Part shown: in pieces, positions 1-58,095 of the stretch
How positions within the stretch are numbered: the stretch's first letter is position 1
How the letters are laid out: every line of letters begins with the position of its first letter
Source of the DNA: Cyclobacteriaceae bacterium
GTDB lineage: Bacteria; Bacteroidota; Bacteroidia; Cytophagales; Cyclobacteriaceae
Direction of reading: 5' to 3'
Length of the DNA stretch: 64,000 bases
Assembly: GCA_016787645.1 (NCBI GenBank)
Contig: JAEUUF010000001.1
Span: 1 to 64,000 of the forward strand
Notes under the pieces: generated by a model
What the model was told of the DNA's origin: nothing
Databases searched by the model: none
Seen by the model: only the letters and a program-made list of their open reading frames with translations
Made by a program: the position numbers and the translations under genes

Positions 1-3000
1 CCGGATCTGTACATCATCCGTGCTGGCCGTACACGTACCGTTACTGATCGTCCAGCGCAACACATAGGTCGTGCCCGCTACTCCGTTGAAGGTCGTCGTC
101 GGGTTGCTCGCCAGTACAAAACTGCCGCCCGCCCCGCTCACGATACTCCACGCTCCCGTGCCGATTATTGCTGTGTTGGCCGCCAGTACCGCACTGGCCC
201 CGCATATGTTCTGATCCGCGCCCGCCGCTGAAGTAGTCGGGGCTGAGTAGTTAGTCAGTACAATATCCTCAAACGTGGCAGCGCAAGATCCACTGCTAAC
301 CGTCCAGCGCAAAGTGGCACTAGTGCCGGCGGGAACCCCGGTAATGGTAGTTGTATTCGATGATGGGTTGCTGATAGTAGCCGTACCCGCTTGTACTGAC
401 CATAATCCAGTGCCGACGCCAGGGGCTGTAGCCGCCATGGAGAATGTTCCGTTATTGCACTGGTCAATATTTATTCCGGCGTCAGCTACAGACGGAGGAG
501 CGCTATTTGTCAAAACAACCTCATCAAAGCTAGGAGTACACACCCCGTTACTGATGGTCCAGCGAAGTGTGGCGCTTGAGCCAAGTGGCACGCCAGTAAC
601 CCCGCTATTGAAGGCGCTTGCCGTGGTGATCGTAGCTGTACCCGATACTACCGTCCACAATCCTGTCCCCGTCGCCGGATTATTGCCGGCCAATGTAAAA
701 GCACTGCCATTACACTGTTCCTGATCTGCGCCTGCTGCCGAGATTGCAGGAGCAGTGTCAACCGTTACAACAACCGGCTTAATATCAAAGCATCCGGCAG
801 CTGATGTTCCTTTAATGAAATAAGTCCCTGCAGTTGCCATGGTGGGTGTCGCATAGGAAACTGAAGCTCCGGCATCCGTCCAGTAGGTGAAGACCAGGCT
901 TGCGGTAGACCCTGCAGTAACGGTTGCTGAAGTTAAGTCAACCGTTCCTGGAGCGCAGACGGCTGCCGGGTTAGTCACTACAACGGTAGGTGTAGGATTG
1001 ACCGTGGCTGTAACTGGCTGTATGGCGGTACAACCGCCAGCTGTTGTGCCTTTAATGTAATACGTGCCTGCCGTTGCAGTAGCAGGTGTTGCGTAGGCAA
1101 TTGTTGCTCCGGCGTCTGTCCAATAGGTCAACGTCAGTCCTGGCGTGGAACCAGCAGTGACTGCAGGAGCAGTAAGGTCTACGGTGCCCGGTGAGCAAAC
1201 CGCGGCTGGGTTGGTGATTGTCAGAGACACGGGTGGCTCCACCGTAATGCTGTTACTAGAAGCAACCTGAATACCATTCCCATCACGCACAGAGAGCGTA
1301 TAAATGGTGGATATTGCCGGATTAGCGACAGGGTTGGCAATTGTTGAACTGCTCAAGCCCGCGATGGGCGACCAGGAGTACACAACAGTCGGATCGCCGG
1401 TTGCAATGGTCGTCAGTGTGCTTCCGGCGCAAACGGTCCCTCCTCCACCAACGATACTAACAGTCGGATTGGCAAGCGTAATACCGGTACAGTAGGTATT
1501 AACTCCACCACCCAAGGGCACGGCGGTCAGTGTCATGTTCACGCCAGCCAGTACCACGCCTTTAATCCACGGGTTGGAATTTTGATCAAAGTTGCCCGGC
1601 AAATATGCGCCTGCTATACTTCCTGAAGCTCCTGTGACATCCGCTCCAACAAACGTTCCGGTGATGTTGGCCGTGGCTCCGGTAATGCCAGACTGGCCGA
1701 TAATCCAGTATCGGGTGAGGAAGTTTGCTGCACTTGCGTTGTTGGGATGCTTCGCATCCACGACCCGGGCGCTCACATAGGCAGAAGAGAAGGAGCCGGC
1801 GGTGACATTCACGGCCACTGGAGATGAGTCAACTCCGCCCGTGTTGTCTCCAATGGGGAACGTAAATGAGCCTGTGGCGTTAAACTCTTTTCGAAGTTCG
1901 CCACCGCTTGAAGCCAGGATTATTCCAACAGGGCCTGGTATTGTGGCCCCAGGGGCCAGGGTAAGGATATTGACTCCTAGATCAACATTCCCTGCGGGAA
2001 GATTCAATGAATTATTTACGCGCGCCGTACCTCCAAGTGTAGCAGTACCACCAGCCTGGTTAACCGTCAGGTTATAATAACTTGTAGGGAAGATCGACTG
2101 ACCGGTCCCATTATAAATTACCGTATTCCCCGAGTTAATTGCGTTAAGCGTATTAATGCCCACAGCACCGGACAAGGTCAGGGTCGCGCCCGTTGCCTGG
2201 GTAAAGTCTCCTGTACCATTCAGCGAAGTTCCAACGGTAAGCGAATTGTTGTTAATCAGTGTCACTCCCGCAACATCCACATTGGGAATCGAGAGTGTTC
2301 CAGTGAGGCTCTGGGTATTCGTATCAAACGTATGGACACTTGTTCCAGCCGTAAACGTTCCATTGTTGGTAATCCCACCGCGGAATGTCACGGGCGCTGA
2401 AAAATTTAGCCAGGTGGATCCAGCTCCAACGGTAACCAGGCCGACAAATGTCTGGGCCCCCGTACCGAGCAGGTTCAAGCTACTGGAATTAATTGTGGTG
2501 TTTCCACTAACAGTTAGCACAAAAGCCCCCGCAACAGTAAATGAAGTCCCGCTACCGACCACGAGATTTCCACCCACATTCGTATTTACGCCAACGGCTG
2601 CTGTCGATGAACCTGCCGTTGTCAGATTAAACAAATTCACAGGGGATGTCCCACTAATGTTTTGAACACCTGCCCCATTCAATGTGGTAGTGCTGGTTCC
2701 GGGAACAATGGTTGCACCGTTGTTAAGTAGATCACCACCGAGGTTTACCGTCGTTCCAGCAGTAAATGTTCCGGCGGTCAGGGTGACAGTGCCTGATACC
2801 GCTAGTGTTGAAGGAGCCGTGAAGTTACCGGCCGTTTGAGTCAGGTTGGCTGTATTCAGCGTAACTGTACTTCCCCCGGCACTGAGCGTACCACCGGATT
2901 TGTTGATGGTCAGGTTGTTGAATGTCTGGGTGGTCGCAGTGCCGTTGATGCTCTGTGCCCCAGCGCCATTGAAGGTTACTGTTCCAGCGCCGGGCACAAA

Positions 3001-4278
3001 CGTACCGCCATTGTTTGTGAAGTCACCGCCAACATTTGTAGCCGTACCGGCTGTGAAAGTTCCTGACGAGAGCAGCACGTCTCCCGAAGCATTGAGCGTT
3101 GCTGGACCAGTGAAGGAGCCTGCAGTTACCGTGAGGTCGGCAAGGTTCAGTGTAGTTGTACCGCCCCCGACCGTCAATGCTCCGCCACCCTTATTCACTA
3201 TGATGTTATTAAAAGTCTGGCTTGCATCAGTGCCGTTGATTTGTTGAGCAACCCCAGCGTTGAAATTGATCGTGGATGTGCTTGGAGTAAATGTGCCCCC
3301 ATTATCTGTCCAATTACCCACCACATTGTGTGTAAAACTAGCTCCATCCAAAGTAGCGCCCGAATTGAGGATTACATCGCCGCCGATGGTAAGTCCTGTA
3401 ACCGCCGTGGTACTGGCTGCACCTGAAATAGTGAGGTTGCCGGCTATGCTAGTAGTTCCTGCCTGCAGGGTTTTTGTCCCACTTCCCGACAATGTTAGAT
3501 TGCCGCCGATATTCACATTGTTGATCGTTTGGGCTCCTGCCCGATAATATTCAACTGTCCCTGCCAATGGCACCGCGACTGATGCAAATGAATAGTTAGA
3601 ACCCCAGTTGGCTGCCCCTACTCGCAACGTTCCTGCAGTAAATGAAGGGGTGGAAGCTGTTAGAAGAAATGTGCCAGGATCAAAGGTTCCATTGGTTAGC
3701 GAAAAGGTACTAGTTGCACTACCGAAGACGGTGATTGGGCTTGCTAACGTCACTGTACCGGATGGCTTATTGATGATGAGCTGACCATTAGTTGCCGCGG
3801 CGCCATTTATCACCCCTGATAACACTTGATTCCCCGAACCATTCAAGGTCAAAGCAAATGAGCCGGTCGCTGTTCCATTAAATGTGTAGTTGCCACCCAC
3901 ATTTATTACCCTGGCAGTACCCCCACCGTTGAGATTTCCAGTCCCCGAAAAGTCCGCTGAGACAGTCAATGACTGGCTAAAGTTTACAGTCAATTGAGAT
4001 GGGGCCGCTGCAATATTTACGGAGGCACACGCTGATGGGACGTTAACGGTCACAATGAAGCCGCCTTCTATAAATACAATATCCCCCGCCACAGGAAATA
4101 TCCCAGGCCCCACAGCTGCACCCCCACTCGTCAGGGACCATGTATTATTGTTGTTCCAGTTCCCTGTGGCACGGGAATAATAAGTCACTGCCTCGGCACT
4201 GAAGGCGATGAAAACAAAGGCTGAAATCGCCAGACTTCTCAGGATCAACGGCAGAGAATATGGAAGACGTAATTTCAC
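1..4278 (-). CDS. Giant repetitive surface protein, 3' end outside the window
   Basis: An open frame without stops runs from a GTG at 4278 to the left edge, giving at least 1426 residues. I chose this GTG because it starts a good Sec signal peptide (basic VKLRLPYS, a hydrophobic stretch, then AFSAEA) followed by YYSRATGNWNNNNTW, a common mature N-terminus of Bacteroidota exported proteins. There is no in-frame ATG upstream before the stop near 4400. About residues 60-800 are Gly/Thr/Asn-rich strand-turn repeats (GGDFTNNGGTF, NGAGAQSINGT) resembling filamentous-adhesin or autotransporter beta-helices, with a period near 96 residues. From about residue 900 there are two YWTDAGA units of about 80 residues, then three GADQ/GINIDQ...GTGxW units of about 82-86 residues, Ig/PKD-like. 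The C-terminus, where a type IX sorting domain would be expected, is not visible. It lies 180 bp after the lipoprotein gene on the same strand. Adhesin is an inference. Confidence 0.85.
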   Translation of the reverse strand, partial: MKLRLPYSLPLILRSLAISAFVFIAFSAEAVTYYSRATGNWNNNNTWSLTSGGAAVGPGIFPVAGDIVFIEGGFIVTVNVPSACASVNIAAAPSQLTVNFSQSLTVSADFSGTGNLNGGGTARVINVGGNYTFNGTATGSFALTLNGSGNQVLSGVINGAAATNGQLIINKPSGTVTLASPITVFGSATSTFSLTNGTFDPGTFLLTASTPSFTAGTLRVGAANWGSNYSFASVAVPLAGTVEYYRAGAQTINNVNIGGNLTLSGSGTKTLQAGTTSIAGNLTISGAASTTAVTGLTIGGDVILNSGATLDGASFTHNVVGNWTDNGGTFTPSTSTINFNAGVAQQINGTDASQTFNNIIVNKGGGALTVGGGTTTLNLADLTVTAGSFTGPATLNASGDVLLSSGTFTAGTATNVGGDFTNNGGTFVPGAGTVTFNGAGAQSINGTATTQTFNNLTINKSGGTLSAGGSTVTLNTANLTQTAGNFTAPSTLAVSGTVTLTAGTFTAGTTVNLGGDLLNNGATIVPGTSTTTLNGAGVQNISGTSPVNLFNLTTAGSSTAAVGVNTNVGGNLVVGSGTSFTVAGAFVLTVSGNTTINSSSLNLLGTGAQTFVGLVTVGAGSTWLNFSAPVTFRGGITNNGTFTAGTSVHTFDTNTQSLTGTLSIPNVDVAGVTLINNNSLTVGTSLNGTGDFTQATGATLTLSGAVGINTLNAINSGNTVIYNGTGQSIFPTSYYNLTVNQAGGTATLGGTARVNNSLNLPAGNVDLGVNILTLAPGATIPGPVGIILASSGGELRKEFNATGSFTFPIGDNTGGVDSSPVAVNVTAGSFSSAYVSARVVDAKHPNNASAANFLTRYWIIGQSGITGATANITGTFVGADVTGASGSIAGAYLPGNFDQNSNPWIKGVVLAGVNMTLTAVPLGGGVNTYCTGITLANPTVSIVGGGGTVCAGSTLTTIATGDPTVVYSWSPIAGLSSSTIANPVANPAISTIYTLSVRDGNGIQVASSNSITVEPPVSLTITNPAAVCSPGTVDLTAPAVTAGSTPGLTLTYWTDAGATIAYATPATATAGTYYIKGTTAGGCTAIQPVTATVNPTPTVVVTNPAAVCAPGTVDLTSATVTAGSTASLVFTYWTDAGASVSYATPTMATAGTYFIKGTSAAGCFDIKPVVVTVDTAPAISAAGADQEQCNGSAFTLAGNNPATGTGLWTVVSGTATITTASAFNSGVTGVPLGSSATLRWTISNGVCTPSFDEVVLTNSAPPSVADAGINIDQCNNGTFSMAATAPGVGTGLWSVQAGTATISNPSSNTTTITGVPAGTSATLRWTVSSGSCAATFEDIVLTNYSAPTTSAAGADQNICGASAVLAANTAIIGTGAWSIVSGAGGSFVLASNPTTTFNGVAGTTYVLRWTISNGTCTASTDDVQIR

Positions 4279-4427
4279 CGATGGGCCAAGGTTATTGATA
4301 CTGGGGCTGTTGCCAACAAGCAACCTTGGAGAGCAGTTGAGGTGTCGGTGAAATGCGGAAAAGAGGACAAGGGTAAAAGTCTCTGCATAGGGGTCGGCCA
4401 ACTAATCTCTTTATCTCCCTAAAAGAT

Positions 4428-4435
4428 CAAAAGTA
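4428..4435 (-). promoter_or_regulatory. Possible -7 promoter box for the surface protein
   Basis: On the minus strand the sequence reads TACTTTTG, a perfect match to the Bacteroidota -7 consensus TAnnTTTG. No clear -33 TTTG lies 19-21 bp upstream. Transcription from here would give a leader of about 140 nt before the GTG at 4278. That leader contains a short ATG frame (4387 to 4275) whose TGA overlaps the GTG start as GTGA. Confidence 0.35.
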
Positions 4436-4458
4436 ACCGAATTTCGCCAGTTTTTCCC

Positions 4459-5763
4459 CTAATTTTCGAACTTTCCTTCCCGACTGACTTTGATCAGAGT
4501 CATCTTAAACTCCCCCGCGTCAGGACGGCCGGTTCGCATGGTCCCAATAAGAATGATCTTTCCATCAGCGAGCTCGGCGACTGCTCCGCATTCGTCAAAC
4601 CCGGCACCCCCGAAAATAATAGGCTGAGTCCACCCCAATGACCCATCATTGTTAACACGGGTCAATACCCAGTTCTGATTATTGTCAAACCCATCTTCTT
4701 CAGCCAGGACAAAATACCCACCGCTTACTACCGACCGGTACACCGAAGTGTGTCCACTAAGACTGGTCCCCAGGTTGATAGAAAGGGTCTTCTGCTTACT
4801 CAGCACAAAACCATTGATGGCATCCGGCAACGAGGCTTCCGTAATAAACACATCCGAGGTAGCCGTGCTGGACTGAAGGAGCCCGGTTGTAAAATAGCCC
4901 GATGGCGTCGGTGCCACAGAGGTCATCTTTTCATCTGCCGAAGGGGCGCCAGAAAAAGTTACGTCGTTGATCGGGTCACCGTTTACTCCCAGGATCACAT
5001 ACCAGAAATTGTAATTCGGTGTGACTCCCAATGGAACCGTATTCGAGTAACCGAATGCATAGAAATTTCCGAATCCACCCGCCGGCGCCGGTACAATTCT
5101 GGCTGATCCGTCGTCAGAATACTTGCCATAGACTTGCAGCCAACTATTGGGGTACACGGTCAGGTTGGTATACACCCTAACCTTCAGGGCATCATGTGAG
5201 TCGGTGATGGACGGAACGGCACCCGTGTTTCCGGGATTTACATACGTAGATGTACCTGCAATCAAAAATCCATCGCTTATCTCGGTGATTGAGGAAACAT
5301 CTTCATCTTTATTAACCGTGGGAACTCCGGAAATATCTCTGACAACGATCGTAGCACTGTCGACTTTCGCACCATCCTGGGTGACGGTGATGACCATAAT
5401 GTCGCGAAATCCATTGTTATCGTATGTATTGCCTGCCAGGACAAGATTACCCGACGTGGTCAACTCAATGTCGCGTGCCTCTTCATTGTTCTTTCCGCCA
5501 AATTCCCTTTCCCACAATACTTGTCCATTCGCATCTGTCCTAACCACATACCACTGAGTGCCTTTCGTCGGCAAGGTTGGACGGCTGGTGCCAAAGAGTA
5601 CAAGACTGCCATCAGGCAATACAGCAAAATCACGCCCCGTCTGATCTCCATCCTGACCATAAAACCTAACGAAATAGGAAGTGGCTGGATTTTTAATGGA
5701 AGAAGTTGAATCACATCCCTGAAGAAGTGTTAGGAAAATCAACGGAAGAAAAACATGCCTCAC
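4459..5763 (-). CDS. Lipoprotein with beta-propeller-like repeats
   Basis: This 434-residue protein starts at GTG 5763, whose bases overlap the TGA of the upstream gene (GTGA), which suggests coupled translation. The N-terminus is a lipoprotein signal with lipobox LLQGC, so Cys17 would be lipidated. The rest is a series of degenerate blades of about 45-60 residues of the form FGG...D.......SG..VLAGNT, ending with FGGAGFDECGAV and ADGKIILIGT. This pattern is typical of beta-propeller proteins exported by Bacteroidota. No catalytic residues are evident. Its position after a STAND NTPase and an outer-membrane barrel suggests a surface or periplasmic partner of the barrel. The ligand is unknown. 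Confidence 0.8.
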   Translation of the reverse strand: MRHVFLPLIFLTLLQGCDSTSSIKNPATSYFVRFYGQDGDQTGRDFAVLPDGSLVLFGTSRPTLPTKGTQWYVVRTDANGQVLWEREFGGKNNEEARDIELTTSGNLVLAGNTYDNNGFRDIMVITVTQDGAKVDSATIVVRDISGVPTVNKDEDVSSITEISDGFLIAGTSTYVNPGNTGAVPSITDSHDALKVRVYTNLTVYPNSWLQVYGKYSDDGSARIVPAPAGGFGNFYAFGYSNTVPLGVTPNYNFWYVILGVNGDPINDVTFSGAPSADEKMTSVAPTPSGYFTTGLLQSSTATSDVFITEASLPDAINGFVLSKQKTLSINLGTSLSGHTSVYRSVVSGGYFVLAEEDGFDNNQNWVLTRVNNDGSLGWTQPIIFGGAGFDECGAVAELADGKIILIGTMRTGRPDAGEFKMTLIKVSREGKFEN

Positions 5764-6923
5764 TTCTTCTTCCCCCCTTCCTTCCGTATGGACTTGGCCA
5801 CGCTCTTGGTGCGCGCCTTCTTCACTTTTCGTGGATTATACAATGGCTTGATATAACCAAAAGACAACATGAGGTTATCCAACCGGAAATAGTCACTCAC
5901 AAAATGATAGCGGGTGATATTGCCTGACAGGTACGCATTGTGGTCCCCGATCTGTGCAGGGGACAACGAGGAAGGATCCTCATAATAAATCTTTGACTCG
6001 TCAGCCAGGTTGGTCATCCCCCCCATGTACCTCAGGTCGGCAAACAGGTAGTTCCTTCCAATCTTGTACTTGACACCTGCCCCAGCCACCCAGGACTTGG
6101 CAAACGTGCTCCGCTGGTTTGTCACCGATTCAGGTGGTCCTTCTGACACCAATTGTGATCCATTGGGCTTATTATCCACATAGGAAAACTGGTTAGTGGC
6201 CGACAACAGGATATTGGCCGCGATGCCACCATACACAAATGGCCGGAACTGCGGATTGACGACGAAGGAGTACTTCACATAAAATGGAACGTCAAACCAA
6301 AACTGACTCGACTGGATACTGATTTCATCCTGATTACCGAGATAAGTTACGTTTCTATAAAATCCGCGGTTCGAAAAGTTCGCCTCAATGCACAGGCTGA
6401 GGTTGTCATTGATATTCCAGTCAATTCCCCCGCCCACCTGGTAACCTATCCTTATCGGGTTCTCGGCAACCGAGGTATATGGTTCTGTTGACAACGAGTA
6501 AATCTGCTGGTAAATGGATGCATTGAGTCCAAGGCGAAAATGCGGTGTGAAAATCGGTGTCGCCGTGTACTGCTTGCTCAAGTAAACGATGTCAATGGGA
6601 TGGTCGCGTTCGTTGGGAACAAACTCGGGATCAGCCTTCAGCAGTCGCAGGTAATTGTCGCCAGCCGCCATGGGATCATCCAGGATCATGTACGCCTGGC
6701 ACAACACCAGGTAAGCCCGCACCTTCTGGTCATTGGACAGTTGACCGCCCGACAGGCAATCCTTGAGAATGGAGGGAATGCCATAAAAATGACCAGCATT
6801 GAACTCCGCCTCCGCTTGATCCAGCTTCTGATCACAATTCATTTCGCTGAGGCTAAGAGTTTGCGCGGTGCCTGCCGCACAATAGCCCAGCAGAAAAACA
6901 GAAAGTAAGAATCGCAGAATCAT
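5760..6923 (-). CDS. Outer-membrane beta-barrel protein with N-terminal helical (TPR-like) region
   Basis: This 387-residue protein has a signal peptide (MILRFLLSVFLLGYCAAGTAQ). Residues about 25-110 are helical and TPR-like (KVRAYLVLCQAYMILDD...AAGDNYLRLLKADPEF), a segment often placed before the barrel in this group. From about residue 125 the protein has alternating amphipathic strands (FRLGLNASIY, YQVGGGIDWNINDNLSL, FVYGGIAANILL, WVAGAGVKYKIG) as in porin-like OMP_b-brl proteins. The C-terminus is a basic tail rich in Lys and Arg. The ATG at 6923 shares a base with the upstream stop (TGATG), and its own stop overlaps the downstream start, so the three genes form a strict translational series. 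The role is inferred: an outer-membrane component working with the NTPase and the lipoprotein. Confidence 0.82.
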   Translation of the reverse strand: MILRFLLSVFLLGYCAAGTAQTLSLSEMNCDQKLDQAEAEFNAGHFYGIPSILKDCLSGGQLSNDQKVRAYLVLCQAYMILDDPMAAGDNYLRLLKADPEFVPNERDHPIDIVYLSKQYTATPIFTPHFRLGLNASIYQQIYSLSTEPYTSVAENPIRIGYQVGGGIDWNINDNLSLCIEANFSNRGFYRNVTYLGNQDEISIQSSQFWFDVPFYVKYSFVVNPQFRPFVYGGIAANILLSATNQFSYVDNKPNGSQLVSEGPPESVTNQRSTFAKSWVAGAGVKYKIGRNYLFADLRYMGGMTNLADESKIYYEDPSSLSPAQIGDHNAYLSGNITRYHFVSDYFRLDNLMLSFGYIKPLYNPRKVKKARTKSVAKSIRKEGGKKK

Positions 6924-9900
6924 CAGAAATCGCTTATCAACAGGCTTTGACAGGTCGACTCATACCCAATGCCATTGGCTACATAGATATCCCACTCTTC
7001 CTTCGTCATGTTTCTCTTGAGTTTCGGGCAAATCTTCTCCGCCAGCATTTTTGGATCAGTAGGCCAAACACGGACCTCACCGTCATTGCAGGAAGCAAGC
7101 AGGTAATCTGAACCCTCCGCAAACGCCAGTCGCCAGATGTTACCCCGGTTGTTGTCCATCACAATCGGAAGGTCTTCCTCATGATCCACTACCCACATCT
7201 GCAATTTCTTGTCATAACCCGCGCTGGCGAGCAACAAACCATCCGGGCTGAACTCCACATCCGAAACTCCTGCATTGTGCCCGCGCATCTCCTTGATAGT
7301 CTCCATGGTTACATAATCCATCAGCTTGACCGAGCCACGCCAGGTCGAGTCACTTCCCGTGTAACTAACATCCTTGAATTCAGTACCGTAAGCCAGGATC
7401 GAACGCGAAGGATGGAAGGCCACCGACAAGACCCGAACGTGATTGAGTGATTCATCCCTGCGCAGATCAAATGACCGGGTAATAAGATCCATTATGATCA
7501 ATTGTCCCGAGGCAGAGACCGCGGCGAGCAATTTCCCATCATGGCTAATATCGATTGACTTGATATCGTAAGGCAGCTTGGTCAGCACCTGGGTCTCTCC
7601 CGTTCTCGGATTTGACAATCGTATCGTGCGATCAGCACCGGCAGAAATAAAATCTGTTCCACCCGGGATAAATTTGATATCCGACACGAAACCTTTGTGT
7701 CCACGAATGATCCGAGGCTTTTCCCCAGGTGTGCTCAGGTCAAATACCTGAAGTGCTGAACTATCGCTTCCGTTGACAAGGTAATGATCATCATCACTGA
7801 GCGCCAATACCCGGTTGGGGTGCGGGTTGAAGTCGACCATCTCATCGGCCGTCAACTTTAGAAAGTCCCCTTTGAAAATCCTGCCGTCATTCCCGGTGGT
7901 ATAGAATGTGCTGTTCTTGTTGGATACAGCCAAGGCAAACATCTTGTTCTTCAGGTTGCCCGGAACTTTGGCGCGGTTGTAATTGAAGTCATTGGACAGT
8001 TTTGCCACTGAATAATAAAGCCCGTTGAAAACGTAAGGATCATACTTCTTTCCTCCGTAGTTTGTATGATACAAATAACCCTGCATGGCCAACAAGCCCG
8101 CCAAGGTGGGATCATCCATAGTCACAGACTTTGCCTCCAGGGACTGAGCAATGGACAGGTATAGCAAAGCATTGGCACGGTCCCGCTCCCGCGTCGCCAG
8201 TACAGTCTGTTGTTCTGCCCTTTCTCTTTCGAGCCGCTCCTTTCCCTGGGCAGCCAGCGCCAATTGTTCCTGACGCAACGCCTCCTGGTAGTTACGTTCC
8301 GCTCTCGCGCGCTCTACTACAGCAATCTGCAAACTGGAGTCTGCTTTACGCAACGCCTTCGCCGTTTCACGCTGGCTTTGTTCGGCCTGTATCCTCGCCT
8401 GTTCTGCCCGGTTCCTCGCGGCTATAGCATCTTCCTCCGCGCGGATAGCCTGACGCTCTTTCTGCCTTGCCAACTCGGCTTGGTTCTGCGCTTCAATGGA
8501 CTGCATGAATCCATAGATCATGAACAGAATTGCGATGATGGCCGCTATGCCTAAGACCACTGAGAATGCCCGCGCGCGCCGCAATGCCCGGCGTTGCAAG
8601 AGCTCCTGGTTCTTGAGTTCTGCCTCGTAAGTAATCCGGCTCGTATCCAGGAATACAATCGCCCGTTCAAACGCCACATCGTATCGCTGCGCCCAAATCC
8701 TGGTGGGCTGCTGTTTTTTCTGCCAGTTAAGTGCCAGTTGAAGATCGGGTGGCCTCCATAATCCAGCCTTACCGGTTTGGTACAAGGCTGCGGCATCTGA
8801 AATCCGCTTGTACATCTGTGCAGATTCAAATTCCTCCTCCACCCAGTTTGTGAGTCGAGTCCAGATACGCATGAGACTTTCATGCGAAAGCTCAATGGTG
8901 CTGGCCCCGGTTAGCCGCACCTGGCTACCCGGCATCAGGAAGGAGCGCCCGGGTTTGCGGAAACATTCAATTACTCGAATTACATCATCCTCTGAAGCGC
9001 TGCACAATTCAGCAATAACACCCACTTTGGCCTGTCGCCGAAGCCCCTGGTTCTCCTGGTTCTTCTCGGTAATACTTTTGAACAACACTTCCGCGATTTC
9101 CCTTTCGGAAGTGTTTAGTTCCTCATAAGCCTCATTGGCATGCAACGAAAGGGCCTGACCAATTTTTCCAATGGCATTGTAATGCCGTAAATCCATCGGT
9201 TCACCAGGCTCCCGGTTGGCTACCCAATAGTCCCACGTCCGCATGAGGGCGTGCTGAAGAATGGGCAACTGATCCTGGTTGTCCCCAATATCATTGAGAA
9301 GTTTCTTTACCAGTCGGGGTGCTATTCTACCACCGCCAACAGCAACAGGTCCTTCAATGGCCAGTCGCTTTTGCTCACGGCCCATCTGGGGAACCAGGTA
9401 ATTGCTTTCATTTATCGCCTCGGTCAGCCCGGTAAACACCGAGCAATCACCGATGAAATCTGACCGGAGGCTGAATGATACGTAGATAGGAACCTCCCGC
9501 TGCTTGATGGCGGTCAATATCAGGTTAACATACTGCGAAGCCTCATCGGTTGATTCTTCCCCGGTTTCCCTGAATCGGAGGAGCTCTTCAAACTGGTCGA
9601 TCAGGAGGAAGAAGTTCTGACTGTCCTCCCCTTGTAGGTAGCGAATTACCTCCACGAGGCCATTGGAACCACTTCGTAAGACCGACCGGATGATGGCTTG
9701 TTGAATAGGCTTGTCTTCCTGTTTGAGGGACCCCCTGCCTTGCAGGTAATTGACAATTGCATCCGTAAGATTAGAGATCGGAGATGCGCCCGGTCTAGTC
9801 GGCAATACCTGCCAATTGGGGCCATTTTCAGTTAAGTAACCGCCATAAAGGACTGGCACAAGCCCGCAGGCAACAAGGCTGGACTTACCACTGCCAGAGT

Positions 9901-10111
9901 AACCCATGATGGTTACACACCGGTGTTTGGCAAGTTTGCTCAGGATTTCGTCTACCTGGCCTTCACGGCCAAAGAAAAGGTGGGATTCCTCAATGGTAAA
10001 GGGGCGTAAGCCTGGAAAGGGGTTTTCCATCGAGGGCGTAATCTCCTCGTGAACCCCAGGTCCTTCAAACAACAACTCTCCCGATGGCTGGGGATAATTT
10101 ACCATTGCCAC
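6923..10111 (-). CDS. STAND-family NTPase with transmembrane helix, coiled coil and WD40 repeats
   Basis: This 1062-residue protein starts at ATG 10111. Residues about 30-180 carry the entry motif NPFPGLRPF and FFGRE, a P-loop at 70-78 (GYSGSGKSS) and Walker B at about 167-176 (NFFLLIDQFEEL). This is the nSTAND1 arrangement: NTPases of the signal-transduction STAND class that assemble when a sensor part is engaged. A winged-helix-like segment follows to about 480, then one transmembrane helix at about 515-536, an Ala/Glu/Arg/Gln-rich coiled coil at 537-650, and about six WD40 blades from 720 to 1040 (VSDIKFIPGG, VSDVEFSPDG, IWRLAFAEG). The membrane helix would put NTPase and propeller on opposite sides unless it is re-entrant. 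It heads a gene set with an outer-membrane barrel and a lipoprotein. No separate toxin domain is seen. The function is not established. Confidence 0.9.
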   Translation of the reverse strand: MAMVNYPQPSGELLFEGPGVHEEITPSMENPFPGLRPFTIEESHLFFGREGQVDEILSKLAKHRCVTIMGYSGSGKSSLVACGLVPVLYGGYLTENGPNWQVLPTRPGASPISNLTDAIVNYLQGRGSLKQEDKPIQQAIIRSVLRSGSNGLVEVIRYLQGEDSQNFFLLIDQFEELLRFRETGEESTDEASQYVNLILTAIKQREVPIYVSFSLRSDFIGDCSVFTGLTEAINESNYLVPQMGREQKRLAIEGPVAVGGGRIAPRLVKKLLNDIGDNQDQLPILQHALMRTWDYWVANREPGEPMDLRHYNAIGKIGQALSLHANEAYEELNTSEREIAEVLFKSITEKNQENQGLRRQAKVGVIAELCSASEDDVIRVIECFRKPGRSFLMPGSQVRLTGASTIELSHESLMRIWTRLTNWVEEEFESAQMYKRISDAAALYQTGKAGLWRPPDLQLALNWQKKQQPTRIWAQRYDVAFERAIVFLDTSRITYEAELKNQELLQRRALRRARAFSVVLGIAAIIAILFMIYGFMQSIEAQNQAELARQKERQAIRAEEDAIAARNRAEQARIQAEQSQRETAKALRKADSSLQIAVVERARAERNYQEALRQEQLALAAQGKERLERERAEQQTVLATRERDRANALLYLSIAQSLEAKSVTMDDPTLAGLLAMQGYLYHTNYGGKKYDPYVFNGLYYSVAKLSNDFNYNRAKVPGNLKNKMFALAVSNKNSTFYTTGNDGRIFKGDFLKLTADEMVDFNPHPNRVLALSDDDHYLVNGSDSSALQVFDLSTPGEKPRIIRGHKGFVSDIKFIPGGTDFISAGADRTIRLSNPRTGETQVLTKLPYDIKSIDISHDGKLLAAVSASGQLIIMDLITRSFDLRRDESLNHVRVLSVAFHPSRSILAYGTEFKDVSYTGSDSTWRGSVKLMDYVTMETIKEMRGHNAGVSDVEFSPDGLLLASAGYDKKLQMWVVDHEEDLPIVMDNNRGNIWRLAFAEGSDYLLASCNDGEVRVWPTDPKMLAEKICPKLKRNMTKEEWDIYVANGIGYESTCQSLLISDF

Positions 10112-10236
10112 AACTATAGAATCAGAAATTTAGCCAATAAAGCGTTAAGTCAGTAATTGAAAACCGTTCAAAAAGTCGCTCCTTATAGTTCTGGGACCGG
10201 GTCCTAGTTCAAAAAATCCTTGAAAAATAGCCGATT

Positions 10237-13200
10237 TTACACATAATCCAAAACTTGTTCGGCCAATTTCACATTGCTTGCCATCAAATCATAGAGGTGC
10301 TCTTTGCCTAACCTCAGCAAGATGGCCCCTTGCCGTGAAACAAGAAGGTTGGAATTAAGGTACCCTGGAATATTGGGCATCTCTCCAATGAACTCACCCT
10401 GTGAAAAAGCCCGTTTCATTTCGGTTCGCTCGTAGTATTCCACTTCGCCCCGGTAAACGATATAGAATTGTGCATTGGCCTTCTCATCAACCACGATCGA
10501 TTCGTTTGCATTCATGGCTTGCTCCGTTGCCGCGTCTGCAAGAAAAGAAAGCTCAAGTCCTGAAATACCTTTGAATATCTCAAGGTTCTTGAAGAATAGC
10601 ACTTTGTCTAACACGGAGAGTCTTGCGTGCGCCTGCCCGGGAAGGATGATCGTATCCATTTGTCGTTTTAGGTCCATCCCCAGCCTTTCCATATTGGATT
10701 CATATTCTCGTGGATCAATCTGGTACAATGCCCATGCCGCCATTTCCCGGACTAACGGATCCGGGTTAAAGAGCTGGGCAATCAGATCCAGGTTGAACTC
10801 ACTGATTCTTTCCGTTCCAATTTGGCGCAGTACACAAGCTTTTGTCCAACGGTTCGTTTGGGTGAATTCACGATTGATCAGGAATTTCAGAACAAGTTTT
10901 TCATCGAGTTGGACACGTGGATAGAATACTTCCAGTCGCCGAATTCGTTCCTGGTCGGAAAGCTCATCGATGCATGGAATCACGCGTTGCTTCAATTGGT
11001 CCGATAGAAACACATCGAGCAACTCTACGGCAAAGGCCGTTCCTTCTACGGTACCACTTTCAATATTCTCTTTCACGAGCTGAATGGAACGAGCGTCGTA
11101 AAGCATGGCCAGCAACATGTACACGTGGTCCACGTCATTCGAGATTTCATTTCGAAGAGCTTCCTTAATGTCTTTGGCGAAACCGGAACTGCCCAGTTCG
11201 TCGATAGCGCACAGGTTCCAGGAAATATCTCCAATGTCGTTTTCTATGGCATATCTGATCCGGGAGGATTGGGCGCTGTTCGCTCTGAACCCTGCTTCAC
11301 CCAGGGCGAGCAGGACTTTGGACACAACCACCTTGTCCGGAAAGTCAATTTTGTTCCAAAGAATTTCTTTGGCATGCTGCCCTCCGATGTAACCAATAAT
11401 TTGAACGATGCTATTCAACACCGCCGTACTTTGACCGGTCCTGTAGAAGGCCGAATCCAGGATGTTCAGTGCCTTCCCTCCAATAACAACCAACGAATCA
11501 GCCGCCTGGTTGCTATACGCCGGATAAGCCAGGTTGTCAATAAGCGCGCGAATCACTTCCGGCGAACTCTTCTTGATCGCCGTTTTCATGGCGGTCTTAC
11601 GGACATTAGGATCGCTATCTGACAGTAGTTCAATGAGATAGGAGGTGTTTTCTTCGGAGTTTGTGTGAAGCAGTAATTCAGCCGCATACTGCCTGTCGCC
11701 TGCATCCTGCGAACGGGCCAACCGCACCAACCGCGATTTTGTGATGTTACCCCCGCTTTTAATCAGCATTTCGAGCTCACTTCGGTTCAGCAAGTTCTTG
11801 TCCGACACTTGTGCGCGGGATTGGTCATACTTGATAATGTACCGCTCCGAAACGGACAAGCCCTTGAGTTCATTCATTCGTCGCTGAGCAAAAGAATGAA
11901 CTTCGGGACGCTCATTGCGGATAAGCATGTTTACCCATTTATTGGCTCCCTCCGGATCAATCTTTTCCAACAGCTTGAAAGAGAATACGGAGGTTCCAGG
12001 AGTTGGGCCAAGCAATTGCGCTTCCAGTCGCCGCGTAATCCGTTCAGTTCCCAACTCGAGTTTTTCAGCGGAGGATTGCGCAGCTTCGAGTTTCGCCTTG
12101 ATTTTTGATTTATAACCCGCATACATCTTCTGGATTACCAGGAAGTACAGACTCACTAGCATAAGAATGATGATGGGCATCCAGATGATTTTGAAAGAGG
12201 CCATCGTGGCAAACCCAATGATGATTGCCCCGGCGGCAAAGCGGCCTGACTCATTGACCACCCCCTCCACTTTGGATTGAATTCCAAACCTTGAACGATT
12301 ATCGAGTGGGATAAACAGAAGCTTGAACATCGGATTCTCCAGTGAATCCCGGATCATGTTGTTAAAGAGTCGGATCAATGCCACGAAAAGGAAGAAGAAC
12401 AAAAACTTATCCGTCATTTCAGGTGTATATCCAAAATAGACGCCACTGAAGGTCGCGCATAACGCAAAGAACCCAACGATAATCGGAACCAGCATGAGGG
12501 CCACCCGAATGCCGTAATTGCTGACAATACGATCATTGACGAACGTTTGCATAATGAAGCTCAACCCGAAAATAGCCGCGTTGAAGAACGCGAGGAACTT
12601 AGTCAGTGCCAATTGATCAGGGTATTGCACTTTGATCAGTTCCTGGAAAGTAAACTGCCCCAGGATCAGCATGACCATGGAAACCACCAGGAAGATAGAG
12701 AGGAGCTTAGTGTACGGATCCCGAATGACTCGGATAATACCGGCCTCTTTGATCACGGATCGGTCAGATTCCCAGGGGTCATTCTTTGCCAGCGGGTACT
12801 TGAGCGAAATAGCAATGAAAAATGAGGCCGAAATAATGATGCTTATCGCACAGACAATCAAGTAATTGTCGGTTTCACCAAAAAAGAGATCCGCGGTTAT
12901 CGGGATCAATAGGTTCGCCAGGATCACCGCCGTAAGCTGGCCGGTATCAATCCAACCGATGATGCGCTTCGACTGTCTGAAATTGAACAACCGACCAAAC
13001 ACCCCCCAATAACTCAACAGGAGTACGGTGGTGATCGGGCCCATCATGCAGAACATGGTGAATATGATAGGCTCCTGGTATTTTGCCGGGCCGAAGTGAT
13101 ACCCTACATAAAAAAAGGTGGTTAGTCCAACAATAAGAATGATGGTGGCCGAAGTGAGGTTGGAGAACTTAATCCTCGTTTGGGCAAAGGAAAAAATGGA

Positions 13201-13401
13201 AGTTGCCGCTATGCCAAACATTCCTGAATAGAAGAATGCCTGGTTCAATTGATCGCCCAACGTATTGAGAAACAGCGACTCAGCCACCACACTATAGGTG
13301 GCCAGGAATATTCCCATGAAGAATCCCGCCGCAAGCATGAGCAACACCTGCGTGCGTTCCTCCTCCCTGACGTTCAGGTACTCCAACAGTTTGGTCAGCA
13401 T
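10237..13401 (-). CDS. NTT-type (ATP/ADP translocase-like) carrier fused to HEAT repeats and a cyclic-nucleotide-binding-like domain
   Basis: This is a 1054-residue protein. Residues about 15-430 contain roughly 12 hydrophobic segments and resemble the nucleotide transporter (Npt/TLC) branch of the MFS rather than sugar carriers. A charged linker (about 430-540) leads to helical HEAT-like repeats (DAGDRQYAAELLLHTN, DPNVRKTAMKTAIKKSS, DPLVREMAAWALYQID) to about residue 900. The last 130 residues are a cNMP-binding fold (FYIVYRGEVEYYE, GEFIGEMPN). The cNMP phosphate cassette looks degenerate because the usual Arg-Ser/Thr-Ala after the Gly-Glu segment is missing, so true cyclic nucleotide binding is doubtful. 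NTT-HEAT hybrids are known in free-living bacteria; substrate and direction are not predictable here. It stands alone, with an upstream terminator at 13433-13460 separating it from the OmpH-like gene. Confidence 0.85.
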   Translation of the reverse strand: MLTKLLEYLNVREEERTQVLLMLAAGFFMGIFLATYSVVAESLFLNTLGDQLNQAFFYSGMFGIAATSIFSFAQTRIKFSNLTSATIILIVGLTTFFYVGYHFGPAKYQEPIIFTMFCMMGPITTVLLLSYWGVFGRLFNFRQSKRIIGWIDTGQLTAVILANLLIPITADLFFGETDNYLIVCAISIIISASFFIAISLKYPLAKNDPWESDRSVIKEAGIIRVIRDPYTKLLSIFLVVSMVMLILGQFTFQELIKVQYPDQLALTKFLAFFNAAIFGLSFIMQTFVNDRIVSNYGIRVALMLVPIIVGFFALCATFSGVYFGYTPEMTDKFLFFFLFVALIRLFNNMIRDSLENPMFKLLFIPLDNRSRFGIQSKVEGVVNESGRFAAGAIIIGFATMASFKIIWMPIIILMLVSLYFLVIQKMYAGYKSKIKAKLEAAQSSAEKLELGTERITRRLEAQLLGPTPGTSVFSFKLLEKIDPEGANKWVNMLIRNERPEVHSFAQRRMNELKGLSVSERYIIKYDQSRAQVSDKNLLNRSELEMLIKSGGNITKSRLVRLARSQDAGDRQYAAELLLHTNSEENTSYLIELLSDSDPNVRKTAMKTAIKKSSPEVIRALIDNLAYPAYSNQAADSLVVIGGKALNILDSAFYRTGQSTAVLNSIVQIIGYIGGQHAKEILWNKIDFPDKVVVSKVLLALGEAGFRANSAQSSRIRYAIENDIGDISWNLCAIDELGSSGFAKDIKEALRNEISNDVDHVYMLLAMLYDARSIQLVKENIESGTVEGTAFAVELLDVFLSDQLKQRVIPCIDELSDQERIRRLEVFYPRVQLDEKLVLKFLINREFTQTNRWTKACVLRQIGTERISEFNLDLIAQLFNPDPLVREMAAWALYQIDPREYESNMERLGMDLKRQMDTIILPGQAHARLSVLDKVLFFKNLEIFKGISGLELSFLADAATEQAMNANESIVVDEKANAQFYIVYRGEVEYYERTEMKRAFSQGEFIGEMPNIPGYLNSNLLVSRQGAILLRLGKEHLYDLMASNVKLAEQVLDYV

Positions 13402-13480: not shown

Positions 13481-14095
13481 TTATTTCTTTCCTGCAACAG
13501 AGTCCTTGGCAGCCGGTGTCTGTTTCTCGAGGCGATAAGCTTCGTTGAGGCCCTTCACCACATCCTTACTAATGTCGAGACTGTCTCCTGCAAACAGAAC
13601 GTCACTGGACGCATCATACTTGAAGACAATCTGGACGCCATGCTCTTGGCCATATTTGCGAAGAAACGTGGTGACCTTGTTATAGAGTTCCTTTGTCATT
13701 TTCTCCTGGTCAGCGAGCATCTGTTGCGACAAGCTCTCCTGGTATAGTTGGAGGTTTTGCCGCTTCTTGGTCAGGTCCTCTTCAACGGCTCGTGCCTGTC
13801 CGATCGTCATGCTATTCACATTGCGTTGGTACGATTCGAACTCACCTTGAAGGCTGGTTGCGCGCGACTTGAGATCCTGATCCAACTGTTTGCCTTTGGT
13901 TTCAAGTTTTTCGCGACTCACTTTGAAGTAGTCATAGTACTTCAGTACGGAATCTGAATTGATGTAGGCCATCTGGAGATTGCCGGCCGGAGAGGACGCC
14001 GTGTTGGTCGCGCCAGGGCCGCTGAAATGAAGGTAATACAATACGGCTACTGCAATGGCCAGGATGACGTTGAATATCAAGGATACATTCTTCAT
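13481..14095 (-). CDS. OmpH/Skp-family periplasmic chaperone-like protein
   Basis: This 204-residue protein has an N-terminal hydrophobic anchor (SLIFNVILAIAVAVLYYLHF). A short strand follows (MAYINSDSVLKYYDYF), then a long charged helical hairpin (about 75-150) rich in Lys, Gln and Glu, and a C-terminal strand (VQIVFKYDASSDVLF). That is the Skp/OmpH layout of a trimeric jellyfish-like chaperone that holds unfolded outer-membrane proteins in the periplasm. The N-terminus looks more like a membrane anchor than a cleaved signal. A perfect -7 box lies 22 bp upstream and a terminator follows, so it is probably monocistronic. Confidence 0.82.
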   Translation of the reverse strand: MKNVSLIFNVILAIAVAVLYYLHFSGPGATNTASSPAGNLQMAYINSDSVLKYYDYFKVSREKLETKGKQLDQDLKSRATSLQGEFESYQRNVNSMTIGQARAVEEDLTKKRQNLQLYQESLSQQMLADQEKMTKELYNKVTTFLRKYGQEHGVQIVFKYDASSDVLFAGDSLDISKDVVKGLNEAYRLEKQTPAAKDSVAGKK

Positions 14096-57165: not shown

Positions 57166-58095
57166 ATGAGCTTCAAGCAATCCGATTATTACACGACGGC
57201 CCAACGGGCAATTGAACAGGTCCCTGGATTTAGGTCTGCCTGGCAGAAATTCATTAAACATACCATCCTTTTTCAGCGAAGTGAGTCTTTGGCCATGAAC
57301 TATGGACGCAACATCGCCCAAATCGCTCTTCACTTTGGCAAGGTGCCCCACCACGTTGAGATCGAGGATATCAAGACCTATTTGTACAATAAGGCTGTTC
57401 ATGAAAGAAAGTCAGAGGGGTACTTCAGGCAAACGGTTTATGGGCTTCGCTATTGGTACAGGTTATTCGACCAGGAGGCCAACGCTATACAGCTTCCGCC
57501 CATCCGCAAAAAGAAATCGCTGCCCGCAGTACTCTCCAGGCAGGAATGTCGTGCTCTTTTTAAAGCTCCGCCTTTACTCAAGCACAGATTCCTGCTGGCT
57601 TTTGGCTACAGCTCCGGCCTTCGTATGAACGAACTACGTATGTTAAAATGTGCCGATGTAGACGTCGATCGGATGCAGATCCACGTGAGGATGGGCAAAT
57701 GCAACCGAGACCGTTATGTTCCGCTCTCGAGGATCATCGCCGACAAGCTGCCACTTTACCACCGGGAATTTCAGATCCAGACCTACTTGTTTGAAGGCAA
57801 AACCCCGGGACAACCCATGGGCAGGCGAAGCATTGCGTATATCATCGCACAGGCGCTTGCCAAGACCAACATCGTCAAGAAAGTCTCTATGCACACCCTG
57901 CGACACAGCTACGCCACACATTTGCTTGAAGATGGTGTGGATATTTACTCTATCCAGAGGCTTCTCGGGCACTCCGACATTCAAAACACGATCACCTATC
58001 TCCACATTGCCAGGCTCAGGCCACTACCGGGGCACAGTCCGCTGGATACGCTGTATGGACGAATACCCAGTTGTGACTGCGGTCAAGGAGCCTGA
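57166..58095 (+). CDS. Tyrosine recombinase/integrase, lone (IS91-associated type)
   Basis: A 309-residue recombinase. The N-terminal SAM-like core-binding domain covers about 1-110 (ESLAMNYGRNIAQIALHFGK). The catalytic domain has Arg153 in SGLRMNELRML, His243 and Arg246 in HTLRHSYATHLLE, His269 in LLGHSDIQ and nucleophile Tyr278 in NTITYLHIA. All catalytic residues are intact. The sequence resembles integrases found beside IS91-type transposases (LYGRIPSCDCGQG end), but no transposase gene follows. Direct repeats TGNTGTAGTCG flank it. It may be a decayed element or a solitary integrase. Confidence 0.87.
   Translation: MSFKQSDYYTTAQRAIEQVPGFRSAWQKFIKHTILFQRSESLAMNYGRNIAQIALHFGKVPHHVEIEDIKTYLYNKAVHERKSEGYFRQTVYGLRYWYRLFDQEANAIQLPPIRKKKSLPAVLSRQECRALFKAPPLLKHRFLLAFGYSSGLRMNELRMLKCADVDVDRMQIHVRMGKCNRDRYVPLSRIIADKLPLYHREFQIQTYLFEGKTPGQPMGRRSIAYIIAQALAKTNIVKKVSMHTLRHSYATHLLEDGVDIYSIQRLLGHSDIQNTITYLHIARLRPLPGHSPLDTLYGRIPSCDCGQGA

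Follow-up and report, generated by a model that had tools for sequence, protein, structure and literature searches.

The DNA analysed here, which we call the window, is a 64,000-nt stretch of the genome of a Cyclobacteriaceae bacterium (GenBank assembly GCA_016787645.1, contig JAEUUF010000001.1, here C14:1-64000). At its start, the minus strand carries a cassette of genes for a carrier-like membrane protein, an nSTAND1 NTPase ending in a WD40 propeller, an outer-membrane barrel, a propeller lipoprotein and a giant surface protein. We propose that this cassette encodes a trans-envelope relay: a STAND switch in the cytosol would extend a WD40 arm into the periplasm, where an outer-membrane receptor would make contact with it, and signals would run from outside to inside. 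We put the probability of this reading at roughly 0.55.

The proposal draws on the linkage and co-occurrence of the genes, the domains they encode, a coiled coil locked in register, an asymmetry of charge about a membrane helix, paired cysteines, and the exchange of the outer-membrane part among relatives. An earlier reading of the letters of this DNA alone (the sequence-only reading) had suggested a trans-envelope STAND device. Linkage, co-occurrence of barrel and STAND genes in 57 of 57 genomes, the fixed register of the coil, the paired cysteines and the swap to a TonB-dependent receptor all speak for that idea, but its parts list was incomplete.

Gene organization of the cassette

In order of transcription, the features are:

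13481..14095, minus strand: OmpH/Skp-like protein (OmpH, E = 2.2e-24), upstream of the carrier gene
10237..13401, minus strand: ADP/ATP-carrier (NTT)-like membrane transporter domain, HEAT repeats and cNMP-binding-like domain; head of the cassette
10112..10236, minus strand: 125-bp gap, the site of the TIR/DUF4062 gene in other cassettes
6923..10111, minus strand: nSTAND1 NTPase (residues ~30-500), one transmembrane helix (~520-537), alanine-heptad coil (541-655) and WD40 propeller (~700-1054)
5760..6923, minus strand: signal peptide, domain of two TPR hairpins, presumed periplasmic (25-97), and eight-stranded outer-membrane barrel (125-358)
4459..5763, minus strand: lipoprotein with SBBP/delta-60-type beta-propeller, lipobox Cys17
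1..4401, minus strand: giant secreted surface protein, N-terminal part (1425-1466 aa depending on the start), cut by the contig end

The open reading frames at 1..10111 agree with the sequence-only reading in the order, common strand and TGATG and GTGA overlaps of the STAND, barrel, lipoprotein and giant genes. The A of the STAND stop codon (TGA, 6925-6923) doubles as the first base of the barrel ATG (6923-6921), and the lipoprotein GTG start (5763-5761) overlaps the barrel stop (5762-5760). The STAND protein more likely starts at ATG 10105, judging from its near orthologue L067, which uses that codon. A 180-bp gap had been placed before the giant gene; this holds for a start at GTG 4278 but not for the longest frame, which begins at TTG 4401. 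The window opens at a contig end, so the giant gene is incomplete.

The carrier-like gene is part of the unit, so the unit is larger than these four genes. No terminator-like site was found on the minus strand of the 10112..10236 gap. Across the window, a Bacteroidota-type promoter pattern occurs 0 times versus 1.14 expected, sigma-70 sites number 14 versus 11.6 in shuffled sequence, and terminators 6 versus 11.2. By eye, an OmpH-like frame also lies upstream at many loci of the genus; we do not claim it as a member of the system.

Linkage and co-occurrence across genomes

We scanned a STAND alignment against 84,980 genomes, each representing one species. There were at least 574 confirmed matches, and the best 80, which are close relatives, were used to examine gene neighbourhoods; they include loci from Chryseolinea (C. 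serpens among them), Fulvivirga, Reichenbachiella, Imperialibacter, Dawidia and Parachryseolinea. On contigs long enough to judge, the gene directly after the STAND gene is the barrel gene (76/76), the next is the lipoprotein gene (72/72), and a further gene on the same strand comes after it (66/66); the three overlapping genes of the sequence-only reading do occur together elsewhere. At 36 of 72 loci, a 4-base overlap joins the barrel frame to the lipoprotein frame. A neighbourhood conserved in this way is more than chance would give. The protein alignments drew on complete proteins from these loci, namely 59 of 73 barrel proteins, 41 of 73 STAND proteins and 44 of 69 lipoproteins, together with the window's own.

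A survey of 242 genomes drawn evenly from the order found the STAND protein (E <= 1e-100) in 71 and the barrel (E < 1e-40) in 57, and all 57 are among the 71 (Fisher p = 1.7e-42, for genomes that are not independent). Five of the co-occurring genomes carry the two genes apart (G053, G381, G404, G436, G457). Of 91 STAND genes, 56 have a full barrel gene within 400 bp and 6 have one at 423-990 bp, four have a partial barrel, four have a barrel at 14-15 kb, eight adjoin a match to the TPR domain only, and 13 have none among the matches listed. Those 13 comprise five in genomes with a barrel elsewhere, two short genes (L207, L208), two with a TPR-bearing protein next door (875 aa in G499 and 874 aa in G521), and those of G391, G443, G455 and G512. 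In a phylum-wide set of 296 genomes, 15 had a match to the STAND profile (E <= 1e-60), eight of them at full length, and four had a full-length barrel.

The sequence-only reading would have been refuted by a wide occurrence of STAND genes without barrel and lipoprotein, and this was observed only in part. Within the order most STAND genes have a barrel, but in families f11, f40 and f52, the neighbour of the STAND gene is instead a TonB-dependent receptor gene, and there is no lipoprotein gene.

A STAND protein with a coil of fixed register

The domain order assigned to the STAND protein from the letters alone, an nSTAND1 domain followed by a membrane helix, a coil and WD40 repeats, is borne out by profile matches to nSTAND1 (E = 2.4e-90) and WD40. 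The nSTAND1 profile PF20703 scores 304 bits against a cut-off of 27, and the columns of the P-loop G-S-G-S-G-K-S-S and of DQFEE are invariant across 42 aligned STAND proteins; by profile and motifs, the window protein belongs to the nSTAND1 clade. In 40 of the 42, lysine and arginine are more numerous in the 20 residues before the membrane helix than after it (mean 6.1 versus 3.8). Because of this excess, the positive-inside rule suggests that the NTPase is cytosolic and that the coil and WD40 propeller are periplasmic. Two cysteines near the end of the WD40 part, C1028 and C1054, are present in all 42.

The single membrane helix is followed by a coil in which most heptads have alanine in first position. 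We measured coil length as the span between conserved anchors at residues 512 and 661, in 124 distinct proteins and relative to that of the window. The difference is 0 in 94 proteins, +7 in 12, +14 in 7, +21 in 4, +28 in 3, -14 in 2, +12 in 1 and +15 in 1. Hence, 122 of 124 homologues have the coil length of the window or depart from it by a multiple of 7; the other two are the remote protein of L178 and that of L168, which lacks the NTPase. Among non-zero differences, 28 of 30 are multiples of 7 for the coil, as against 27 of 435 for seven other segments of the same proteins, although related proteins share length changes and the 28 are not 28 independent events. The sequence of the coil is among the fastest changing (mean distance 0.73 versus 0.38 for the NTPase). 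With a rise of 0.15 nm per residue, a coil of ~106 residues would extend over ~16 nm, which is of the order of a periplasm.

We considered whether coil length follows the outer-membrane partner, and dropped the idea. The difference is 0 in L194, L205 and L206 and -14 in L200 and L204, all loci linked to injection systems; it is 0 to +21 at barrel loci and +14 to +28 at four TonB-receptor loci.

The barrel and the lipoprotein

As the sequence-only reading had it, the STAND gene is followed by genes for a beta-barrel (OMP_b-brl_2, E = 2.8e-15) and a lipoprotein, whose lipobox cysteine is kept in 45 of 45 aligned rows. An AlphaFold2 model of the barrel protein from 60 aligned rows (mean predicted local distance difference test score 92.9) has a signal peptide, four helices that form two TPR-like hairpins (25-97), and eight long strands (125-358). 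The TPR domain has cysteines at positions 30 and 56, both present in 57 of the 60 rows and both absent in 3, the pattern expected of a disulfide. An eight-stranded barrel is too narrow for protein export, and the model argues for a role in anchoring or in passing a signal. Secretion through the barrel, one of the functions first suggested, is for the same reason unlikely. Matching the barrel profile against sequences of the Protein Data Bank (PDB) found nothing. We also tried the barrel as a member of the PorP/SprF family, and this was ruled out: PF11751 matches seven loci in the window genome, none of them at 5760-6923.

The lipoprotein matches delta-60 repeats at 1.6e-12, below the model cut-off, and its profile matches CylK of the PDB at 5.9e-25.

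The TPR domain is shared with TonB-dependent receptors

Four loci (L163-L166) encode distant full-length STAND homologues followed by a protein of 863-895 aa, of which mainly the first ~110 residues, the TPR part, match the barrel family. These proteins and one in L168 are TonB-dependent receptors (5 of 5 scanned) that have the same TPR domain at their N-terminus. L163, L164 and L166 also have the carrier-HEAT-cNMP gene, and at their end lies a Reg_prop/Y_Y_Y sensor whose output part is a histidine kinase or SpoIIE; L168 has such a Reg_prop/Y_Y_Y kinase and no carrier gene in view, and L165 has neither in view. At L168:7509-9167, a STAND relative without the NTPase keeps the membrane helix, coil and WD40 propeller, and adjoins the TPR-TonB receptor and a propeller histidine kinase.

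The TPR domain and the helix-coil-WD40 arm are thus the constant pair, while the receptor and the output vary. This constancy is our main ground for suggesting contact between WD40 and TPR. Partial rank correlations of distances across 88 cassettes, to which no significance test was applied, point the same way: beyond the NTPase, WD40 distances correlate with those of the barrel (0.58) and lipoprotein (0.54), whereas beyond WD40 the NTPase gives 0.15 and 0.18. The lipoprotein and giant protein are not core to the module, since they are absent from the sequence examined at the TonB-receptor loci and at injection loci L200 and L204.

The TPR profile also matches proteins next to kinases and some with neither STAND nor kinase in view. 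TPR-domain proteins adjoin Ser/Thr kinases with a membrane helix at L167:2473-7468 and L169:7663-12832 (Pfam matches, with PEGA repeats) and at L179:6087-8740 (by eye). Hence, the TPR socket may serve kinases too. A coil common to these kinases was considered and rejected, as the TPR-adjacent kinases of L167, L169, L171 and L179 have no alanine coil.

A proposed relay and its direction

How might the cassette work? The STAND NTPase would lie in the cytosol, with its single membrane helix leading into the alanine-heptad coil, which would cross the periplasm and hold the WD40 propeller close to the outer membrane. There, the propeller would dock on the TPR domain that the eight-stranded barrel protein bears. 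The barrel would carry the propeller lipoprotein and, outside the cell, the giant protein, brought there by type IX secretion. Binding of, or tension on, the surface parts would alter the WD40-TPR contact, and this change, passed along the coil, would set the NTP state or oligomerization of the STAND domain, which would then act on cytosolic partners: the TIR/DUF4062 protein where there is one, and the carrier-HEAT-cNMP protein. The membrane sides, the direct docking, the outside-in direction, the ligand and the output are what we infer from the observations above. We favour signalling from outside to inside because it is receptors that are swapped, and because the genes sharing the operon in the TonB version encode sensors.

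Several observations weigh against the relay as drawn. Its direction is favoured by analogy only. The residues on the C-terminal side of the membrane helix are themselves fairly rich in lysine and arginine, at 3.8 on average. With WD40 taken into account, TPR and NTPase still correlate at 0.41, and values of this kind are inflated by common ancestry. The lipoprotein and the giant protein are absent from the sequence examined at the TonB-receptor loci, L200 and L204, and coil length does not track the outer-membrane partner. The short STAND genes L207 (581 aa) and L208 (579 aa) have no barrel nearby. Conversely, some weaker barrel matches occur in genomes with no STAND at 1e-100. Those (1e-24 to 1e-37) in G375, G385, G398, G432 and G441 span most of the profile, among the matches listed, and a match in G371 covers profile positions 4-136 only; these six genomes were excluded from the 57.

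Contractile injection systems

Seven loci link the module to contractile injection systems (L193, L194, L200, L201, L204, L205 and L206), with genes for sheath, gp19 tube, CIS_tube, tape measure, baseplate and spike. Both STAND and barrel genes lie inside the injection operon at L193/L194 and L206 (genomes G406 and G438), and the STAND gene alone does so at L205 (G395). In G416 and G446 (L200/L201 and L204), the carrier, TIR, STAND and barrel genes are followed by a short gene on the opposite strand, a GH18 gene, two further genes, and then the injection genes for sheath, tubes, spike and baseplate; a tape-measure gene is reached in G416, the stretch from G446 being shorter. The gp19 tube family occurs in 74 of the 242 genomes, and a search of the window genome for a gp19 tube gene found none. 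The gp19-bearing genomes hold 32 STAND genes. Of all 91 STAND genes, 13 have a tube gene at a distance of up to 15 kb, versus 0.16 expected under random placement, although the 13 come from six genera and so represent fewer independent events. At the level of whole genomes, STAND and tube genes are not associated (p = 0.76).

These loci bring out the strongest alternative to the relay, namely that the same parts work from inside to outside. The NTPase would drive or license, via the coil and barrel, the outer-membrane display, anchoring or release of the giant protein, or the firing or anchoring of an injection system. The giant adhesin and the injection systems favour this direction, since genes downstream of the module then look like outputs and, in the injection operons, STAND or barrel genes sit within the cluster, and STAND genes lie close to tube genes far more often than random placement would give. 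On the other hand, STAND proteins are known as switches rather than motors, the TonB-dependent receptors and Reg_prop sensors of the distant versions resemble inputs, and the proximity to tube genes has no counterpart at the genome level. We regard this alternative as unlikely, though it deserves to be taken seriously.

We tentatively suggest, at a little less than even odds, that the cassette is an interchangeable module: a cytosolic STAND switch whose register-locked coil and periplasmic WD40 head connect it to a TPR socket on different outer-membrane devices. With the same reserve, we suggest that these devices are a small barrel with a giant adhesin, a TonB-dependent receptor or a contractile injection system, and that the module represents a class of outer-membrane-to-cytosol signalling of which the literature searched gives no description.

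The giant surface protein

The window was said to encode a surface protein of more than 1400 residues. This is right for the visible part, but the gene is cut by the contig end, and the five complete giants from the genus have 3813, 4178, 4513, 4657 and 5125 aa; a sixth extends past 6614 aa. With the window part as query, we found no other match in the window genome and no continuation. The window copy stops before any C-terminal sorting domain, and the tails are known from relatives: the type A sorting domain of the type IX secretion system (T9SS), TIGR04183, scores above cut-off in 6 of 6 complete giants tested, and a PNPA...KLVV-like ending is visible by eye in all five complete giants of the genus. 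Two further giants of the genus were examined: that of L211 passes the Pfam tail cut-off and falls under that of TIGR04183, which has no match in that of L214. The giants of L071, L093, L097, L100, L112 and L137 are apparently broken or cut and were not counted as complete, and at L132 the tail-bearing frame is the second, not the first, after the lipoprotein. The window genome encodes SprA, the T9SS translocon.

Downstream of the giant gene, two genes on the opposite strand converge on it at all five loci that reach so far (L211-L215). In L211, the pair encodes a hybrid histidine kinase (PAS, HisKA, receiver and Hpt domains) and a sigma-54-type response regulator.

Could the cassette simply serve the giant protein, as a PorE- or SprF-like accessory unit for export, folding or anchoring of a T9SS cargo? 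The T9SS tails on most tested giants invite this idea, and PorE combines TPR and propeller at the outer membrane in the account of it given in PMC5053529. We consider it improbable, because none of the seven PF11751 loci falls at the barrel gene and because the module is also paired with TonB receptors or injection genes in place of a giant protein.

The carrier gene, the TIR gene and a second cassette

The description of all partners as envelope proteins is incomplete, as it misses the carrier-HEAT-cNMP gene and the TIR/DUF4062 gene of other cassettes. In the carrier-like protein, HEAT_2 matches at 1.4e-15 and cNMP_binding at 2.2e-4, below cut-off, and residues 104-439 match the plant ADP,ATP carrier in the PDB (9j3j, 1.3e-7). 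The upstream neighbour of the STAND gene is the carrier gene at 52 of 74 loci, a TIR gene at 14 and another gene at 8. The window genome itself has a paralogous second cassette on contig C1 (L041), in the order carrier-HEAT-cNMP, TIR with DUF4062, STAND-WD40, barrel, lipoprotein and giant, the last being partial in the stretch examined. This genome has two nSTAND1 genes that score above the family cut-off, and both belong to these cassettes.

In a tree of 102 STAND proteins (quick model, midpoint root; 13 of 115 rows removed as identical), the window protein lies within a 68-row TIR-less clade with support of 100, in which the TIR-less label was also given where the contig stops before the upstream gene. 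In the other row labelled TIR-less, L048, the TIR frame is broken and more than 400 bp away. Since the clade is nested among TIR-bearing rows, the TIR gene between carrier and STAND genes was most likely lost once, in the clade of the window.

At L048:12867-14885 and L054:1436-3388, a gene for a HAMP and SpoIIE phosphatase protein lies between the carrier and TIR genes; the L054 protein is SiaA-like at 252 bits, under the model cut-off of 700. Loci L174, L175 and L177 have TIR-like and nSTAND1 pairs with no adjoining barrel or TPR match, and resemble ordinary STAND conflict systems.

An envelope-triggered defence, in which a phage that adsorbs to the surface parts would set off suicide through the TIR/STAND switch, would suit the TIR-STAND architecture of the other cassettes and the fact that barrels and surface proteins are typical phage receptors, but is improbable given the apparent single loss of TIR across a whole clade, the lack of any PADLOC match up to E = 0.05 for the four window proteins (a scan outside which the TIR protein fell), the lack of conservation of the presumed catalytic TIR glutamate in alignment A4 (judged by eye), and the similar neighbours that the window copy retains in the genus (by eye).

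Elsewhere in the window, a 309-aa frame at 57166-58095 resembles a tyrosine recombinase by eye; it is followed on the opposite strand by an adenylate-cyclase-like TPR protein.

Comparison with known systems and significance

The cassette may work most like the TonB-dependent transducers typified by FecA-FecR-FecI. In both, an N-terminal periplasmic domain of an outer-membrane protein would be read by the periplasmic arm of an inner-membrane protein, and distant relatives of the cassette use a TonB-dependent receptor (L163-L166, L168). The cassette differs in having TPR for STN, WD40 on a coil for FecR and a STAND NTPase for the sigma factor. In place of the barrel and plug of a TonB-dependent transducer, the window has the eight-stranded OMP_b-brl_2 barrel. 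Among the Pfam matches of the scanned proteins, a set narrower than their wider neighbourhoods, there is no STN, FecR or sigma-factor domain.

In the SprB/SprF gliding pair, too, the gene for a giant T9SS surface protein adjoins one for an outer-membrane barrel, whereas the barrel of the cassette is not of the PorP/SprF family and comes with a STAND protein and propeller lipoprotein. The nSTAND1/TIR/WD40 conflict systems share nSTAND1, TIR and propeller modules with the cassette, in which, by contrast, WD40 lies beyond a membrane helix and coil and has outer-membrane partners; the words "outer membrane" are absent from the main text of both papers on them (PMC7159879, PMC8195603). PorE (PG1058) of the T9SS, as portrayed in PMC5053529, likewise combines a TPR and a propeller on the periplasmic side of the outer membrane. 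It is a single lipoprotein with an OmpA-like domain and no NTPase, while the cassette has TPR and propellers on separate proteins. As regards AlgoCIS and other extracellular contractile injection systems, the module of some Cytophagales lies within or next to injection clusters with CIS families; WD40, TIR and STAND (as a protein) are absent from the main texts of PMC8894135 and PMC8213781, and the window genome differs in lacking the gp19 tube gene. Among the titles listed in searches of open-access literature, a body that leaves out most subscription papers and preprints, none describes this system.

What would such a relay mean? STAND switches are the group of NLR immune receptors and Apaf-1, and are mostly known as intracellular sensors. 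If our reading is true, a STAND protein wired to the outer membrane would be a new way of carrying a signal across two membranes, and the relay could inform bacteria of surface contact or ligands. The seven-residue rule of the coil is a simple and directly testable prediction. Furthermore, the physical link to injection operons in some relatives raises the possibility that the module is a trigger or envelope anchor for such machines.

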